A stretch of DNA of 31,102 bases from Saccoglossus kowalevskii (Eukaryota; Hemichordata; Enteropneusta; Harrimaniidae). The DNA is taken from the NCBI RefSeq assembly GCF_000003605.2, contig NW_003129368.1, forward strand, positions 154,894-185,995, in the 5' to 3' direction. Below are positions 2,716 to 26,830 of the stretch, one piece after another. The notes under the pieces are model-generated. The model did not search any database and was not told where the DNA came from. It saw only the letters and a list, made by a program, of their open reading frames with translations. The first letter of the stretch is position 1. Every line of letters starts with the position of its first letter. The translations under genes were made by a program, and so were the position numbers.

Positions 2716-3842
2716 ATGTCTGACAACGAAGTTCAACACGTCGACGACGCCATAGAGATTGACATATCTTAACAGAAAAGAAACAGAACAACGGCGAGGA
2801 GGCAACTCACCACGATAATGAACCAGATAGAACCGCTGATCCGAGACTACGAACAACAAGAAAACAAAGAACTGGCTTTCCAACAAATTCAACGACTATA
2901 CGATGTCTCAAAGATACGCATGGAACGACTGCTCGCTGCCGACGCCGAGATATTTAACGCAGTCCCACCCGAACACCCAGAATTTGACGAGACCGATCTA
3001 TATGAGATCGAAGCTTCGACTCGTCATCTAGAAGTTTCTTACTTCCTAAAGAAGTTTACTACAACTAACACGGGAAATTCAAGAGACGATACCGCACAAC
3101 AAGTAAGCCACCCTACACAAGTTGAATCAACGCAACAACCAACCAGATTCAAGTCCATACAACTGCCAAAACTTGAGATCCCTACGTTTCACGGAGATAC
3201 TCTCCTCTGGAGTGAGTTTTACGACACGTACAACGCTGCCATTCATTCAGACAATCAGTTATCGAATGTGCAGAAATTTACCTATCTCCGCAGTTTTCTT
3301 GGAGGTGAAGCAAAGGGACTGATTGACGGGCTAGCCACTACTGACGTCAACTACACCACTGCCATGGACCTACTCGAAAAACGGTATGGCAGCAAACAAC
3401 CTATCATCAATGCGTACATGACATCTCTATGGGAGCAAGTACCGCCAGAAAACAACCCGACCAGCTTACGGCGTTTTCACGACGAATTGGAAACAATATA
3501 TCGGGGCTTGAAGAATCTCGGTGAAGACGAAACTAATTATGGGGAAATTACTCATACCACTCATGTTACAGACGTTGCCCATAGAATTCCAACGTCAGCT
3601 AGCTCGAGCCAACTCGGATCACGAATGGACATTGTCACGTCTAAGTCAACTAATGCTGAACGAAATACGTATTCTAGCAATTGGCGAAATGCCAAATCTT
3701 GACAGCCCGCAAAACTCGGCCGTTGCAGCATTCTCAACGGGGTACAGCCACAGGGGCCTGACGATCTATTCGTCTCAATGCATGGACGTGTATGGGACCG
3801 AACGACTATGTCCCGGTACAGGACCTTGTCCTTGCTCAAAAT
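2716..3842 (+). mobile_element. BEL/Pao-type LTR retrotransposon gag fossil
   Basis: The longest open stretch (2818-3702) reads as the gag region of BEL/Pao elements, the family often labelled DUF1759. It includes the characteristic KLEIPTFHGD segment followed by a tryptophan-containing WSEFYDTYNAAIH stretch and a KFTYLRSFLGGEAKGLI stretch. Only gag is present. No protease, reverse transcriptase or integrase follows, and neither LTR can be delimited. The piece is a truncated, broken fossil with about two or three breaks, and LINE fragments on the opposite strand adjoin it. Confidence 0.85.
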
Positions 3843-12094: not shown

Positions 12095-12282
12095 TCAAAC
12101 ATTGGAATGAATGTTTTGATAGCATTGTTCAAAACCATTGCGAGTGCCAAGGTTGGTTGGTTTAGTTTTGAAGTTCATTGTGGTTGGTAAGGAATTCTGC
12201 ATGAAACGTGGTGGCTGGTAGAGCTGGTAAAATTCACTACAGTAAAGGTCTTGATGAGCCAGTCGGGAAGGGGGACGGTCGA

Positions 12283-12408
12283 TTCGTCCCAAATCACATT
12301 CGTCCCAAGTCGATTCGTCCCACAAGTCGATTCGTCTCAAGTCGATTCGTCCCACAAGTTAATTCGTCCCAAAGTCGATTCGCCCCACAAGTCGATCGAT
12401 TCGTCAGA
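12283..12408 (+). repeat. Left arm: tandem TCGATTCGTCCCA motifs
   Basis: At least six copies of a motif of the form (C/A)AAGTCGATTCGTCCCA, some with ACATTCGTCCCA in place of the GATTCGTCCCA version. The right arm (13343-13480) carries the same two versions as reverse complements. Confidence 0.92.
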
Positions 12409-12537
12409 TTTAAGGTTAGCCCACTACTAACTCACCAAATAAACACAAAAATCCAAACAACGAACTGTTCACGTACACGTCATGCACTGGCATGCATAAT
12501 TGTTCGTTATGCCATTTTGTTTTTGCCGATGTTATAA

Positions 12538-13275
12538 ACAAATACACCGCACACGCAACGTGGAGTTATTAGTTAGTAAATACAAATACACCGTACATGC
12601 AACGTACAAGTTATTAGTTAATAAATACAAACACACCTTACATGCAACGTAGAGTTATTAGTTAATAAATACAAATACATCGTACATGCAATGTAGAGTT
12701 ATTAGTTAATAAATACAAATACATCGTACATGCAACGTACAAGTTATTAGTTAATAAATACAAATACACCGCACATGCAACGTAGAGTTATTAGTTAATA
12801 AATACAAATACACCGTACACGCAACGTACAAGTTATTAGTTAATAAATACAAATACACCGCACACGCAACGTAGAGTTATTAGTTAATAAATACAAATAC
12901 ACCGCACACGCAACGTAGAGTTATTAGTTAATAAATACAAATACATCGTACATGCAACGTACAAGTTAATAAATACAAATACACCGCAGACGCAACATAG
13001 AGTTATTAGTTAATAAATACAAATACACCGCACACGCAACGTAGAGTTATTAGTTAATAAATACAAATGCATCGTACATGCAACGTACAAGTTATTAGTT
13101 AATAAAATACACCTTACATGCAACGTAGAGTTATTAGTTAATAAATACAAATACATCGTACATGCAACGTACAAGTTATTAGTTAATAAATACAAATACA
13201 CCGCAGACGCAACGTAGAGTTATTAGTTAATAAATACAAATACACCGTACACGCAACGTGGAGTTATTAGTTAGC
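12538..13275 (+). repeat. 44/45-bp minisatellite, 17 units of two types
   Basis: Units start ACAAATACACCG and end TTATTAGTTAATAAAT. Two types differ at the middle: GTAGAG or GTGGAG (44 bp, H) and GTACAAG (45 bp, C). The order along the + strand is HCHHCHCHHCHHCHCHH. Unit 10 lacks a 7-bp segment, and the junction of units 13 and 14 lacks 5 bp or so. The C type usually carries TACATGC upstream of the marker, and H often CACACGC or CAGACGC, so the types are consistent along their length. Confidence 0.93.
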
Positions 13276-13342
13276 GTGTCAGTAACAGTTGGCATAGAAA
13301 TTGACCCTGCTCAAGATCGTAACGCTGACCGAAAATTAAAAA

Positions 13343-13480
13343 AAATGGACGAATGTGAATTGGGACGAATGTGAAATGGGACGAATGTGAATTGGGACGA
13401 ATCGACTTGTGGGACGAATGTGAATTGGGACGAATCGACGAATGTGTTGGGACGAATATGAATTGGGATGAATTGACTGT
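13343..13480 (-). repeat. Right arm: inverted tandem TGGGACGAAT motifs
   Basis: About eight copies of TGGGACGAAT followed by CGACTTG or GTGAAT; this is the reverse complement of the left arm at 12283-12408. It forms the other half of the foldback structure. Confidence 0.92.
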
Positions 13481-15867
13481 GAATCGTCGGGAAAGCTGGC
13501 CACTGCGTTTGTTGTGGCAGCTCCAGAGCGAAAACTGTGTATAAGGAGGGTTCTGATCGGGTCTGTGATAATTTGGCTTGTGGGATATGAGCCATCGATA
13601 AATGGGAACGCTGGTGCATGCTGAGAGAATGTGGTACTTGCCTCAGTGTATTTACTGCATGCTCTCACTGCACAAATTGAGGAGCCAGATGTCAGTTTGT
13701 GGCCACGTCAAAATGGGTCGTTCTTGGCTACCTTTATGTTGAGAATGATTGTACTACCAAGGTTGACGTTGGATCGGAGTAGAATGCGTTCGCAAGGCAA
13801 ACTTGCTTACTCGTAGAAACCAAAAAAAAATGTTATGGTGAATGCAGCTCATAACATCAATATATCTGTAGTGCCAATATTGACTAAACAGCATATCATA
13901 ACTAGTTTAATTGAATGGTTATGGGTATTTGTGTAGCTGTAGGGTCGCAATTTGTTTCTTGATGTCCTGGCGCAGGAGATGATCTTCTGTGTGCTGTCAT
14001 AGGATGGCACTGAGATATACATTGTTTGTTTCATACGCCAGTGACAGCGATGCTAGGTGCGTGACAAAGAGGATGGCAGAGCAGCGTGTGAATGGTAGCA
14101 GAGCAAGACCGTAGGTGTGACAGTAGACTGTCAACAGTCCTCGCCTAATGTACTTGTGTTTCCTAGACATTCAAACGCCATAGACGTTTGATTGGAAATG
14201 CAAAACATTTCACGGATCGGGTAAGAAATCTTACCAGTGAATTGCAGCACTGGACAGTCGGACATGCCTAACAGCACTCCATATTTCCTGTCTCGGTGTT
14301 CGCAATTTATTCACGCCTATTACGTTTATACACAATATTTCTTAGTAATAACAAATTAATATTAGGTACGATTGACTGTCGACAGTCTAATGTGACAGAT
14401 ATTGTAATATCACGTCTGCCTTGACTGATATGTGTGAAGTGTTGTGGTAGCAATGCTGTTAGTGATGTAGAAGGATGGTTGATTTTCCAACGCTTTCGTT
14501 GCACCACCATGTAATGTCCAGCCTGAAATCGTCTGACAGGTTTATGATTTAAGTGAGTTGTGGATAGGTCAATCATGTGTCCGAGCAAGATGTGATCAGC
14601 GGGAACACATTTGTATGCAAAACTCAGGGTGCCAGTGAGGCAGCTGTCACTTGGTACATGACTGTCTGTTGAGCCACTTTTGTAGCATTGTGGTGAGATC
14701 TGCCATTTTTTCGCTTGGCAGTCATATGACCATGGAGTTGCTGTCAAGTTCAATGCTTAGAAATGTCAGTGTTGTAGCTAGGCTCTTGATTTACTCTTTT
14801 GAAATGGGTACAACCAGGTGGGTGCATTTGTTGAGCATGATGTCCTGGATGTGCTGGCACTTGTTGATGTTAGGTGGGCCCACTGTGAAGAAATTGTGAA
14901 ATTAATGTAGTAGGTGGCAATTCAGTTAGTGTTGAACGTAGACCAAAAGGCAATACTCTATCAAAGAAGTAGAAGCCCTGCTACTTTTAACAGAGGAGTC
15001 TTATTTTCTAATGGAGCACACAAAAAATGAATGCCTTTTGTAAACAGGGACCATGCTTTATGTAGATTGCTACTGTTGTTGAAACTATTTACACTATTGC
15101 TAGTTGGGTGTGACAAGTCATTGATAAGACATATCCCCTATTCTTTTTTATGTGGACCTTATTTTGTGAATGGTGGTGCTCGAAGGTGCTGATGGCATTT
15201 ACTAACTTGACTTTATTCATAATTGCTTCGGTTATAACTGATGGATTGGAGCCTGCACTTTTTGCCTTGTGAGTGTAAAGTTGGTGATGGTGATGATAGG
15301 ACTTGCCTTAGGTGCTGCAGATATGTTGATGACTGTGTGGGCATATTGTTGTGCATAATTCCCAATTGAGTGCTGGTCTTCTAGTGATGGACATCCTTGT
15401 CTACTGTCAATAAATGGGTCAGGTATGCTCCAATTGCAGACATTGGGGTAGCGGGATACGTCTTCACGAAAAGCCATACTTCGGGTTTATAGATGTCAGA
15501 TTTTTCGCCATTGAATCTGATAATTGATGAGGCGGACTGCTTTTTGCAGAAAATAGAAGGCAAGATTCAAATGATCCAAATTCTGACACCCATCTGCCTA
15601 GCGTATTAACGGATTTTGCTCTGAAAGGCAACTGTAGCAACAGACAGGTTGTCTGGGTCTAATCTGAAACGTGTAAAAATCGATGGGGCGAAGTTTGGGT
15701 GTTGGTTGTCAGATGCAGGTTGGAAAGTGGAAGTGAATGGCAGTGAATGGTTGAGTAATGGTAGTGAGGTTGTTTATCGTTGTCACTATATATTGTGGTT
15801 TGCCCTGTCATCTGTATCTCTAATACACCAATTTGGTACAAAGTTTAGATTACCTCTTCAGTTAATT

Positions 15868-17730: not shown

Positions 17731-18071
17731 ATGAATATTGGTATAGCTATCGCCATAGAACTGGAAAATAGACAGATAGTCAGACAGGGATATTATTACA
17801 TGGAGTATTACATGAATATTGGTATAGGTATCGCCATAGAACTGGAAAATAGACAGATAGTCAGGCAGGAATATTATTACATGGAGTATTACATGAATAT
17901 TGGTATAGGTATCGCCATAGAACTGGAAAATAGACAGATAGTCAGACAGGGATATTATTACATGGAGTATTACATGAATATTGGTATAGGTATCGCCATA
18001 GAACTGGAAAATAGACAGATAGTCAGGCAGGGATATTATTACATGGAGTATTACATGAATATTGGTATAGC
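17731..18071 (+). repeat. 81-bp minisatellite, left part (4 units plus 17 bp)
   Basis: ATGAATATTGGTATAG starts at 17731, 17812, 17893, 17974 and 18055: exact 81-bp spacing. The unit has no stop in one frame on either strand, so both strands show open frames of a 27-residue period (for example YYYMEYYMNIGIGIAIELEN). The frame lies within a MACROD2 intron and has no splice support, so I do not call it a gene. The fifth unit stops after 17 bp where a LINE begins. Confidence 0.95.
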
Positions 18072-18895
18072 TTTTCAAACAAGATTTAAAAATTGAAAAT
18101 TACCTAATTAATATGCAGAACCATGGTCTTAGAAGGTTAATTGCAAAATTCAGGACAAGCAACCATGACCTTAAAATTGAGAAAGGCAGACATAATAATG
18201 TGCCGCTGGATAAAAGAACATGTGATATGTGCAGCCAAAATATAGTTGAGGATGAGCAACATTTTGTAATGAAATGTCCAGCTTACAGTCACCATAGGGA
18301 CAAATTATTCCTGACTGCACAAAATAAAATTCCAAATTTTGATAAAGAAAATAGTCAGAATAAATTCATTTTGATTATGGCAAACCATACTCTAGCACCA
18401 GCCTTAGCTGTCTTCTTAAAAAACAGCTATGGAACAAAACAGCAACAACTATCAGTGTATTAGGCCACATTTTGTGTTCATTCTATATTCTGTATTCACC
18501 ATTGGCTGCAAATTGTATTTTTTTGTTTTTGACTTGTTTTTTTTTTTTTTTTTTAGAAAANNNNNNNNNNNNNNNNNNNNNNNNNNNNNNNNNNNNNNNN
18601 NNNNNNNNNNNNNNNNNNNNNNNNNNNNNNNNNNNNNNNNNNNNNNNNNNNNNNNNNNNNNNNNNNNNNNNNNNNNNNNNNNNNNNNNNNNNNNNNNNNN
18701 NNNNNNNNNNNNNNNNNNNNNNNNNNNNNNNNNNNNNNNNNNNNNNNNNNNNNNNNNNNNNNNNNNNNNNNNNNNGTTTTTATTTTTTGTTTTCTTTTTT
18801 AGATTGTAGTTTTTTTTTTAATTTCTTTCTGTAAGACCCTTTTTATCCTTTCCTAAGGATTTTATGCGTCTAATAAAAAAATATAGTAAATATAG
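18072..18895 (+). mobile_element. 5'-truncated LINE 3' end inserted in the 81-bp array
   Basis: Directly after the minisatellite break, the sequence reads FKQDLKIENYLINMQNHGLR and continues to a stop at 18461-18463. It contains KFRTSNHDLKIEKGR and the terminal zinc-knuckle CDMCSQNIVEDEQHFVMKC (C-x2-C-x8-H-x4-C). This is the C-terminus of LINE ORF2, as in several invertebrate non-LTR clades. A T-rich 3' untranslated region follows, broken by a run of N, and the copy ends in an ATATAGTAAATATAG tail. The reverse transcriptase and endonuclease are missing through 5' truncation. Confidence 0.88.
18561..18775. other. Assembly gap (N run)
   Basis: 215 undetermined bases flanked by poly-T-rich sequence within the LINE 3' untranslated region. 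The real distance may differ. Confidence 0.98.
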
Positions 18896-19688
18896 TATCG
18901 CCATAGAACTGGAAAATAGACAGATAATCAGGCAGGGATATTATTACATGGAGTATTACATGAATATTGGTATAGGTATCACCATAGAACTGGAAAATAG
19001 ACAGATAGTCAGGCAGGGATATTATTACATGGAGTATTACATGAATATTGGTATAGGTATCACCATAGAACCGGAAAATAGACAGATAGTCAGACAGGGA
19101 TATTATTACATGGAGTATTACATGAATATTGGTATAGGTATCACCATAGAACTGGAAAATAGACAGATAGTCAGGCAGGGATATTATTACATGGAGTATT
19201 ACATGAATATTGGTATAGGTATCACCATAGAACTGGAAAATAGACAGATAGTCAGGCAGGGATATTATTACATGGAGTATTACATGAATATTGGTATGGG
19301 TATCACCATAGAACTGGAAAATAGACAGATAGTCAGGCAGGGATATTATTACATGGAGTATTACATGAATATTGGTATAGGTATCACCATAGAACTGGAA
19401 AATAGACAGATAGTCAGGCAGGGATATTATTACATGGAGTATTACATGAATATTGGTATAGGTATCACCATAGAACTGGAAAATAGACAGATAGTCAGGC
19501 AGGGATATTATTACATGGAGTATTACATGAATATTGGTATAGGTATCACCATAGAACTGGAAAATAGACAGATAGTCAGGCAGGGATATTATTACATGGA
19601 GTATTACATGAATATTGGTATAGGTATCGCCATAGAACTGGAAAATAGACAGATAGTCAGGCAGGGATGTTATTACATGGAGTAATAT
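18896..19688 (+). repeat. 81-bp minisatellite, right part (64 bp plus 9 units)
   Basis: The first 64 bp (TATCGCCATAGAAC onward) are exactly the missing part of the unit broken at 18071; full units follow at 18960 and every 81 bp to 19608. Eight inner units carry TATCACC where the left array, the broken unit and the last unit carry TATCGCC. The last unit decays into ATATTAATATGG. Confidence 0.95.
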
Positions 19689-20446: not shown

Positions 20447-21656
20447 AGTCCCAGTTCGAACGCAGTCAATCTTGGGAGCGTGTGTGTGGGCGTGCGTGCG
20501 TGTGTCCGGACCTGTATTTTAGAAATGCCTGGACCAATCACAATCAAATTTCACACATACATAATACATGATATTATACATATGCACGTCAATTTATTTC
20601 ACGATCTGATTCAAGATGGCCGAATGGCGGCCATTTTTGTGCTAAAAATCATCAAGCATTTTTCGGCTGTTTACAGATGGATTTTGTTCAAAATTGGTGT
20701 ATATGTTAGACATTACAGGACCTTGATGCACATAATTTTGTTTTTCAGATAAAATTAAAAATCGCCGACTGGCCATAATGAATGTGGTTCTCGTGCCATA
20801 TCTCTGACTTGCTTTGACTGATTATGTTCAAATTTTAAATATTCATTATAGATCATGTCATAGATATACAGATATATTGGTTTGACGATTCTATTATAAA
20901 AGGCCGAATTGTGGCCATTTTTGTGCTAAAAAATCATCAAATCAAGTGTTTCCCGGCTGTTTACAGATGGATTTTGTTCAAACCTTGTATATACGTTGGA
21001 CATTATAGGACCTTGATGCACATCATTTTGTTTTTCAGATACATGTAAGATTTAAAATGGCTGGCTGGCAGCCATTTTGTTTCAATGAATGTGGTTGTAG
21101 TGCCATATCTCTGACTTGCTTAGACTGATTATGTTCAAATTTTAAATATTCATTATAAATCATGTCATAGATATACAGATTTATTGGTTTGACGATCCTA
21201 TTCAAAATGGCCGAATGGTTGCCATTTTTGTGCTAAAAAATCATCAAATATCAGGCATTTCTGGCATTTATGGATAGATTTTGTTCAAACTTGGTACATA
21301 CATTAGACATTATGGATTCCTGATGCACGTCATTTTATTTTTCAGATCGAATTTAAAATGACTGACTGGTGGCCATTTTGTATTAATTAATGCAGCTCTG
21401 ATATGCTTTGACTGATTATGTTCAAAGTTTATATATTCATTATACATGTATTCAAAATGGCTGATTTTGTTTTAATTAATGCTGTTCCAGAGCAATATCT
21501 TTCAATACTCATTTGATGATCAGATACAAATGTCATTTTAATGTTAAACAGTCATCATAATCATATTCCTGACATGTTTATGTTCCTGCTATATTACTAT
21601 AAGCAAAACTATATATCTTAAATTCGATAACTAACGGGGACTGGGCCATGCATGGC
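20447..21656 (+). repeat. Long member of the AGTCC-leader / GCCATGCATGGC-end repeat family
   Basis: A leader (AGTCCCAGTTCGAACG) and a GTGTGTGTGGGCGTGCGTGC tract are followed by CCTGGACCAATCACAATC and about three units of 284-307 bp marked by ATGGCCGAATGGCGGCC (20618, 20902, 21209). The 3' module reads ATATATCTTAAATTCGATAA, then ACGGGGACTGG and the 12-bp perfect palindrome GCCATGCATGGC (21645-21656). Members at 21990 and 26388 share both ends but have fewer inner units. Confidence 0.82.
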
Positions 21657-26387: not shown

Positions 26388-26830
26388 AGTCCGAAAACGG
26401 GGACTTATGGATTGACTTTTGTGCATCCGTGTGTCTTAGACATGCCTGGACCAATCACATTCAAACTTAACATATACATCACACATAATATTATCTGGCG
26501 GCCATTTTGTTTTCATGAATGGAGTTCGCGTGTCATATCACTGCCATGCTGCCATGTTCAAATTTTATATATCGTTATACATCATGTTATAGATATATAT
26601 ATGTATTCAAAATGGCCGACTGGTGGCCATTTTGTTTTAATTAATGCTGTTTCAGAGCAATATTTATCAACATGGACAAGTACGATTAGATACAAGATGA
26701 CTGAATTTCAATCATTTTAATGTTAAAAAATCATCATAATCAAGCATTAGCTTCAGGATCGATATCTCTGACATAAACAAAACTATATATCTTAAATTTG
26801 ATAACTTACAGGGATTGTGCCATACATGGC
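26388..26830 (+). repeat. AGTCC-leader / GCCATACATGGC-end repeat, downstream of MACROD2
   Basis: The leader AGTCCGAAAACGGGGACT (26388-26405) can pair AGTCC with GGACT. Then come ACATGCCTGGACCAATCACA, AATGGCCGACTGGTGGCC, the ATATATCTTAAATTTGATAA module, and the end GGGATTGTGCCATACATGGC. Length is 443 bp. It begins about 380 bp after the MACROD2 stop codon. Confidence 0.82.

Follow-up and report, generated by a model that had tools for sequence, protein, structure and literature searches.

A non-autonomous foldback transposon splits a tyrosine-recombinase fossil in Saccoglossus kowalevskii and was probably moved by a Mutator-like transposase

How did a 1,216-bp unit with inverted repeat arrays at its two ends come to lie in the middle of a decayed tyrosine recombinase? 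The question is raised by a 31,102-nucleotide stretch of the genome of the hemichordate Saccoglossus kowalevskii (contig NW_003129368.1, positions 154,894 to 185,995 of the forward strand; the whole stretch is henceforth referred to as the window), in which an original prediction, made from the letters alone, had described a foldback element with an exact 8-bp duplication splitting the recombinase of a DIRS-like fossil. We found that the unit is a real, well-bounded non-autonomous foldback transposon which is nested in a tyrosine-recombinase fossil and comes from a dispersed family. We accept transposition because sister copies have the same borders and duplications of their own, because one sister has an empty site, and because relatives of the recombinase are uninterrupted. 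We further hold with good confidence that positions 12270–13485 are a non-autonomous cut-and-paste foldback DNA transposon, most likely moved in trans by the transposase of a Mutator-like element (MULE).

The borders proved to be where they had been predicted: the window has exactly two copies of GTCGGGAA, at 12262–12269 and 13486–13493, and the interval between them measures 1,216 bp (12270–13485). The inverted CGTCCCA arrays are also present, as this motif occurs five times in the window, each time in the left arm, and its complement TGGGACG six times, each time in the right arm; shuffling the bases of the left arm 20,000 times never gave more than two copies of the motif. Both arms consist of ATTCGTCCCA-type tandem repeats, inverted with respect to each other and spaced mostly 15–17 bp apart, the first of which starts at base 13 counted from either duplication. 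The parts of the element are as follows.

12262..12269, no strand: left target-site duplication, GTCGGGAA (two occurrences in the window; recombinase continuity)
12270..13485, plus strand: whole non-autonomous foldback element, 1,216 bp (16 sisters with both ends; removal length of 1,224 bp)
12270..12281, plus strand: left terminal 12-mer, GGGGGACGGTCG, common to the family and unlike the right one (comparison of 17 copies)
12282..12410 (inner border approximate), plus strand: left arm, tandem ATTCGTCCCA-type repeats
12538..13273, plus strand: core, a 44-bp minisatellite in about 17 copies (tandem-repeat analysis)
13345..13473 (inner border approximate), minus strand: right arm, inverted array of ATTCGTCCCA-type repeats
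13474..13485, minus strand: right terminal 12-mer, GATTCACAGTCA read inwards (comparison of 17 copies)
13486..13493, no strand: right target-site duplication, GTCGGGAA (recombinase match ends at 13486)

The unit thus has the long inverted ends, largely made of short tandem repeats and able to form a stem, that characterise foldback elements, the long stem being predicted by pairing of the arms as a single strand, without a shuffle control at such length. The 21-base ends of the original prediction need a correction: counted on an alignment, they agree with each other at no more than 14 of 21 positions, chiefly owing to the outer 12 bases, which are not the same on the left and on the right.

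One explanation for this arrangement is that two inverted tandem arrays arose by chance and happen to have the same 8-mer at their borders, with no transposition involved. The 8-bp match alone is only mildly surprising: in this repeat-rich window, random pairs of points placed 1,224 bp apart shared an 8-mer in 1.3% to 14% of cases, depending on the search width (half-widths of 8 to 40 bases). We therefore turn to other copies in the genome assembly (572 Mb, 4,830 contigs), where the element DNA had at least 158 matches (the best 40 of 143 candidates being scored). We took 39 loci of the same genome for comparison and located their ends by alignment to both arms, within 4 bases of the end, followed by extrapolation. 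Both ends were present in 16 of the 39 loci, and the 23 loci lacking one or both were left out of the duplication count. Exact target-site duplications flanked 10 of the 16 sisters (8 bp in seven, 9 bp in three), or 11 of 17 copies when the window copy is included, in line with the expectation that other copies would be flanked by direct duplications; the outcome that would have told against the original prediction, other borders or a lack of duplications among the other copies, was not seen. By comparison, none of 272 mismatched flank pairs drawn from the 17 copies shared an exact 8- or 9-mer, and the three sisters with an exact 9-bp duplication have no matching 8-mer directly at their ends. 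The duplicated bases vary between sister copies, which therefore represent separate insertions.

The ends themselves are family features. With at most two mismatches, the 22-base left end had 37 matches in the genome and the 22-base right end 58, whereas reversed-pattern controls had none. Among these matches are two further pairs of ends, on C3574 and C3824, which do not enter the duplication count. The terminal 12-mers GGGGGACGGTCG and GATTCACAGTCA are nearly invariant in the 17 copies, although this conservation is partly by construction as the copies were selected by their ends; the asymmetry between left and right is common to all 17, and in 17 of 17 the arm repeats begin at base 13, counted inwards from each end. 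Dispersed copies, fixed ends and target-site duplications, by which non-autonomous class II elements are recognised, were thus all found.

A second line of evidence comes from the interrupted host. Around the element, the recombinase and a neighbouring repeat are arranged as follows.

12250..12269, minus strand: stretch in which the recombinase fossil continues (PDWLIK), with decay and frameshifts beyond it (tblastn with L104–L106)
13486..13674, minus strand: upstream part of the tyrosine-recombinase fossil, ending in ...HSFRSGAATTNAVASFPD (tblastn with L104–L106)
14124..14390, no strand: distinct dispersed repeat that has inverted ends and lies within the fossil region (inverted-repeat pair; genome matches)

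At the protein level the recombinase has eight relatives in the genome, with 42–51% identity over the matched stretch. Three of them (L104, L105 and L106) are uninterrupted at the insertion point, where they read (I/L)PDWLIK.LGRW, and the recombinase match on the window ends at 13486. Relatives lacking the insert, which the original prediction had called for, therefore exist at the protein level, and the contrary outcome, the same insert in all copies, was not seen. We scored 6,561 trial joins of the window against these three relatives. The joins scoring at least as high as the true one numbered 15, 15 and 14 (L104, L105 and L106, respectively; the true join included), and all of them remove exactly 1,224 bp, i.e., the 1,216-bp unit plus one 8-bp copy. 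This agrees with the predicted break at one duplication and resumption at the other. At this removal length, joins displaced by up to a few bases scored slightly higher than the true one, meaning that the recombinase protein sets the removal length and not the exact base, the position being set by the duplication and the sister copies. A general recombinase motif was also tried as a join marker and rejected: it showed the break at 13486, but 12 of the 6,561 joins outscored the true one. In the same window, positions 15581–15610 on the minus strand encode VNTLGRWVSE, which resembles the LGRW of the recombinase but lies far off and scores within the shuffle range.

We also compared joined flanks (i.e., the sequences on either side of a copy, brought together) with possible empty sites. 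The repeat that houses the sister L010 occurs in the window as well. The joined flanks of L010 aligned without gaps across the junction to window positions 20776–20881 (92% over 106 bases, of which about 19 precede the junction on the left) and 21067–21268 (78%, with gaps further left and none across the junction), each of which has a single TGTATATC; a third, weaker match at 26497–26607 has TATATATC at the junction. An empty site with the duplicated bases in single copy was thus found for one of ten sisters tested. For the other nine, no match spanning the junction was found in the window or the compared loci, and the joined flanks of L026 matched only their own genomic place. No DNA paralogue of the host of the window copy was found among the best 40 of 161 candidates scored, and the empty-site evidence for this copy is at the protein level only, via L104–L106. 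Side by side with these results, the chance origin of the arrays has next to nothing left to recommend it: the frequency of shared 8-mers in repeat-rich DNA is in its favour, and it is refuted by sisters with identical borders and duplications of their own, by the empty site of one sister, and by recombinase continuity that is restored at a single removal length.

The nature of the host is less firmly placed. That it is a tyrosine recombinase held up, and its predicted DIRS-like identity is supported only indirectly. In L104, a match to Phage_integrase (E-value 3e-4) is directly preceded, in another frame, by a match to the RNase-H-type domain RVT_3 (E-value 0.0022), both below the Pfam curated cut-offs. 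Phage_integrase following an RNase-H-type domain is the order of DIRS/Ngaro-type elements, which the weak domain order in L104 would fit without proving it. Three frames each of L105 and L106 gave no Pfam match at an E-value of 0.01, the fossil recombinase pieces and frames around the element gave no relevant Pfam match, searches of the recombinase against PDB and IMG/VR returned nothing relevant, and its motifs had no match in a literature text search. As to the neighbouring DNA, the 53 other genome matches listed for window positions 13494–14900 all fall within the dispersed repeat at about 14124–14390 and not in the recombinase fossil.

Because the element splits the fossil, it must be the younger of the two; the recombinase had to be present first, and its decay and frameshifts fit this order. 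The window copy has an exact duplication, and the terminal stretches of the 17 copies differ by about 6% mean mismatch. The ratio of observed to expected CpG is 1.83 in the element, above expectation, and 0.67 in the CpG-poor window, although tandem repeats do not give independent counts and this ratio has no dating value.

Which enzyme moved the element? The original prediction had left the choice between hAT, P and another superfamily, and the evidence now leans towards the last of these, in the form of a MULE. MULE duplications measure about 8–11 bp and hAT duplications at most 8 bp, while 8-bp duplications also occur with P elements. A MULE is favoured over hAT or P because of the mixture of 8- and 9-bp duplications (8 bp in seven and 9 bp in three of the 16 sisters, within the range of MULEs), the asymmetric termini, and arms made of 15–17-bp repeats, i.e., long ends in which short tandem repeats lie subterminally, as found in MULEs. 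Mobilisation by a hAT transposase would account for the exact 8-bp duplications of the window copy and seven of the 16 sisters, and 34 hAT-type domain matches are present in the genome; we nevertheless consider it quite unlikely, given three exact 9-bp duplications, which exceed the hAT length, hAT matches on end-bearing contigs that lie more than 80 kb from the end, and the ends GGGGGAC and GATTCAC, which seem unlike usual hAT ends. A P-type transposase is, in our estimate, a still weaker candidate. Its appeal lies in the foldback-like element Galileo, which shows that P elements can have long repetitive ends with several transposase binding sites (PMC3688188). Galileo is, however, described as bounded by 7-bp sequences (PMC3573991), as opposed to the mixture of 8 and 9 bp in the window family, and the three exact 9-bp duplications do not fit the length expected of P elements.

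The preference for a MULE is based on the build of the element, the length of its duplications, and one MULE locus of the same build in this genome. We searched the assembly for MULE and hAT transposases and found 12 MULE loci (3.2–3.3 kb each). One of them, L049, has a MULE domain (50.9 bits; cut-off 27.6) within an element of 1,488 bp. This element is flanked by an exact duplication of 9 bp, ATGCAGTGG; its outer bases are GATTC and GGATG, followed by 15-bp repeats that form inverted arrays, with seven units on the left and three on the right. L049 has the build of the window family with a different motif. We also observed that L051 (C1009; MULE match at 159963–160238) has inverted arrays of longer repeats, with an offset of about 52 bp and about 163 bp paired at 87%, and is a second foldback-type MULE build in the genome; the other MULE loci examined showed no clear pair of inverted arrays. 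Under the proposed mechanism, a transposase encoded by another element would attach to the numerous ATTCGTCCCA repeats of both arms, pair the ends and cut at the asymmetric 12-bp termini, and insertion at cuts staggered by 8 or 9 bp would leave GTCGGGAA on both sides of the window copy. The arm repeats are accordingly termed putative transposase binding sites here, by analogy with Galileo.

Several observations weigh against this account. No exact duplication flanks six of the 16 sisters (7/8 positions match in L019 and L027, 7/9 in L034, 6/8 in L014, 5/8 in L021 and 2/8 in L012), nor two loci outside the 39, L079 (7/9) and L102 (at most 3/8). Neither CGTCCCA nor the family ends occur in any of the 12 MULE loci, and L049 alone among the 12 shows both arrays and a duplication, the latter being a single case. 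No transposase was found between the ends of the window family and no autonomous element with such ends was found, so that the relative that would encode a MULE transposase between the same ends is missing, although its absence carries little weight in an assembly that has gaps. A family end (at most two mismatches) was present on 68 contigs, one of which (C1009) has a MULE match, 68 kb away, and three of which have the distant hAT matches mentioned above. Open reading frame (ORF) lists of 13 end-bearing loci, judged by eye, contained no recognisable transposase, with four of the 13 running into N gaps; the same was true by eye of L090–L092 and L102, no MULE match is present on the contigs of any of these loci, and the long ORF of L090, the one such ORF given a domain scan, encodes a C2H2 zinc-finger protein. 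A MULE thus remains the best supported source of the enzyme, and an unproven one.

The less ordinary part of the family is its variable 44-bp core, together with related arrays that have no arms. By approximate motif count, the 17 copies have 5–14 left repeats, 5–38 right repeats and 0–15 core units; the upper value for the right arm belongs to L014 (C2511), whose 38 repeats compare with 5–15 in the other 16 copies. The copy L034 has both arms and no core (its duplication, as noted, is imperfect), which means that a copy can be bounded without a core, and the core is most readily seen as a length-variable passenger. Matches to a 30-base core pattern numbered 79 in the genome with at most three mismatches, and 66 of them share a contig with an element end. 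Of the remaining 13, eight are on C3869, two on C3426, and one each on C1911, C690 and C4724; at the C1911 locus (L044) arm repeats adjoin the core. Core-like arrays with neither an arm array nor an end in the flanks compared (about 0.5–1 kb per side; C3426 ends within 0.5 kb of the array) were found on C3426 (28.5 units), C3869 (L043; 31 units, about 77% alike) and C4176 (L046; 14.6 units, about 73% alike), those of L043 and L046 having 44–45-bp units. The arrays on C3426 and C3869 exceed in length those of every copy that has both ends (0–15 units by motif count; about 17 in the window copy by tandem-repeat analysis). At L102 (C2962:36950–42700), one left end is followed by four right ends, the last of which lie in a tandem duplication of 329 bp and have almost identical bases beside them; here family ends were amplified by tandem duplication.

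These arrays can be explained in two ways. The core minisatellite may be the primary amplifying unit, with the arms secondary, as in modular foldback families that capture dispersed repeats. Arm-less arrays at C3426, C3869 and C4176 speak for this reading, whereas a copy with both arms and no core (L034), the location of 66 of the 79 core-pattern matches on contigs with an element end, and borders and duplications that track the arms and not the core make this unlikely. Alternatively, a MULE-type foldback family may carry and shed a 44-bp passenger and thereby disperse two kinds of young satellite, arm repeats and core repeats. This second idea draws on the 38 units in one arm of L014 and on the same three arm-less arrays, and we put it forward as a tentative possibility. 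Since repeat numbers vary in both arms and core, and core arrays stand alone, a single genome could be used to test satellite origin against capture.

Elsewhere in the window, an 81-bp minisatellite, 97–98% uniform and open in a frame on both strands, occupies 17731–18070 and 18891–19684; between its two blocks lie a reverse-transcriptase-like tail (zf-RVT at an E-value of only 0.13, below the cut-off) and a 215-base N gap. The ORF at 2773–3702 has a strong match to DUF1759 (E-value 1.4e-30), a domain seen in gag-like parts of BEL-type retroelements.

How new is the element? Searches of one open library for the arm motif, by sequence text (20 of 114 matching papers being considered, all unrelated by title) and by foldback terms, gave no published description; the element DNA against a phage collection and the arm pattern against IMG/VR and GTDB gave nothing relevant, and Rfam gave no match. 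The window element represents a new non-autonomous family. Its build has already been published, and the original prediction of an uncommon structure was overstated, as MULEs with such ends and 8–9-bp duplications are described from a mosquito (PMC5225508) and a nematode (PMC3169594). Muta1 and Muta5, Mutator-like elements of Aedes aegypti, have 8- or 9-bp target-site duplications and ends of 145–151 bp composed of a short terminal motif and nine copies of a 12–15-bp repeat, and both features resemble those of the window family. They have hundreds of non-autonomous derivatives, those of Muta1 with varied interiors and repeat numbers (PMC5225508). Unlike the window family, they include copies that encode a transposase, and the terminal motif of Muta1 is a 10-bp imperfect palindrome; the likeness is one of description only (PMC5225508). 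Tm1, a Mutator/foldback element of root-knot nematodes, shares with our family asymmetric termini followed by inverted arrays of short repeats: it has asymmetric 7-bp outer motifs, inverted arrays of a repeat of about 14 bp in variable number, and duplications of 8–10 bp, mostly 9 bp (PMC3169594). The window element does not belong to Tm1, whose outer motifs are CGGTTAA and CCTACCC and whose repeat is CGATTCAGTATCCGC, as opposed to GGGGGAC, GATTCAC and ATTCGTCCCA here, and the part of the Tm1 paper at hand mentions no large minisatellite core (PMC3169594).

Foldback elements with repeats in their arms are also known outside these two groups. The TU elements of the sea urchin are foldbacks whose outer arms consist of 15-bp tandem repeats, whose middle parts are heterogeneous and whose duplications measure 8 bp. 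Tetris, in Drosophila virilis, is a published case of a foldback that seeds a satellite, and its authors suggest a Mutator affiliation; their paper also names a sea urchin foldback (PMC4079207). Like the window family, Tetris is a non-autonomous foldback whose tandem repeats also occur satellite-like outside the element, with duplications of 8–10 bp. In contrast to the window family, its repeats measure 220 bp and lie in the arms, which reach 1.7 kb, and not in a core (PMC4079207). Galileo, in Drosophila, has similarly long repetitive ends, with several transposase binding sites (PMC3688188). It differs from the window family in belonging to the P superfamily and in having 7-bp flanking sequences (PMC3573991), and its end repeats measure about 210 bp in one subfamily (PMC3573991, PMC3688188). 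Repeats in these long ends bind the THAP domain of the transposase, a property which the authors state to be untested for foldback and Phantom elements (PMC3688188). Set beside these systems, the window family adds one more genome to those in which this animal MULE architecture is known, and provides a clean example of movement with exact borders by an element that consists almost entirely of tandem repeats.

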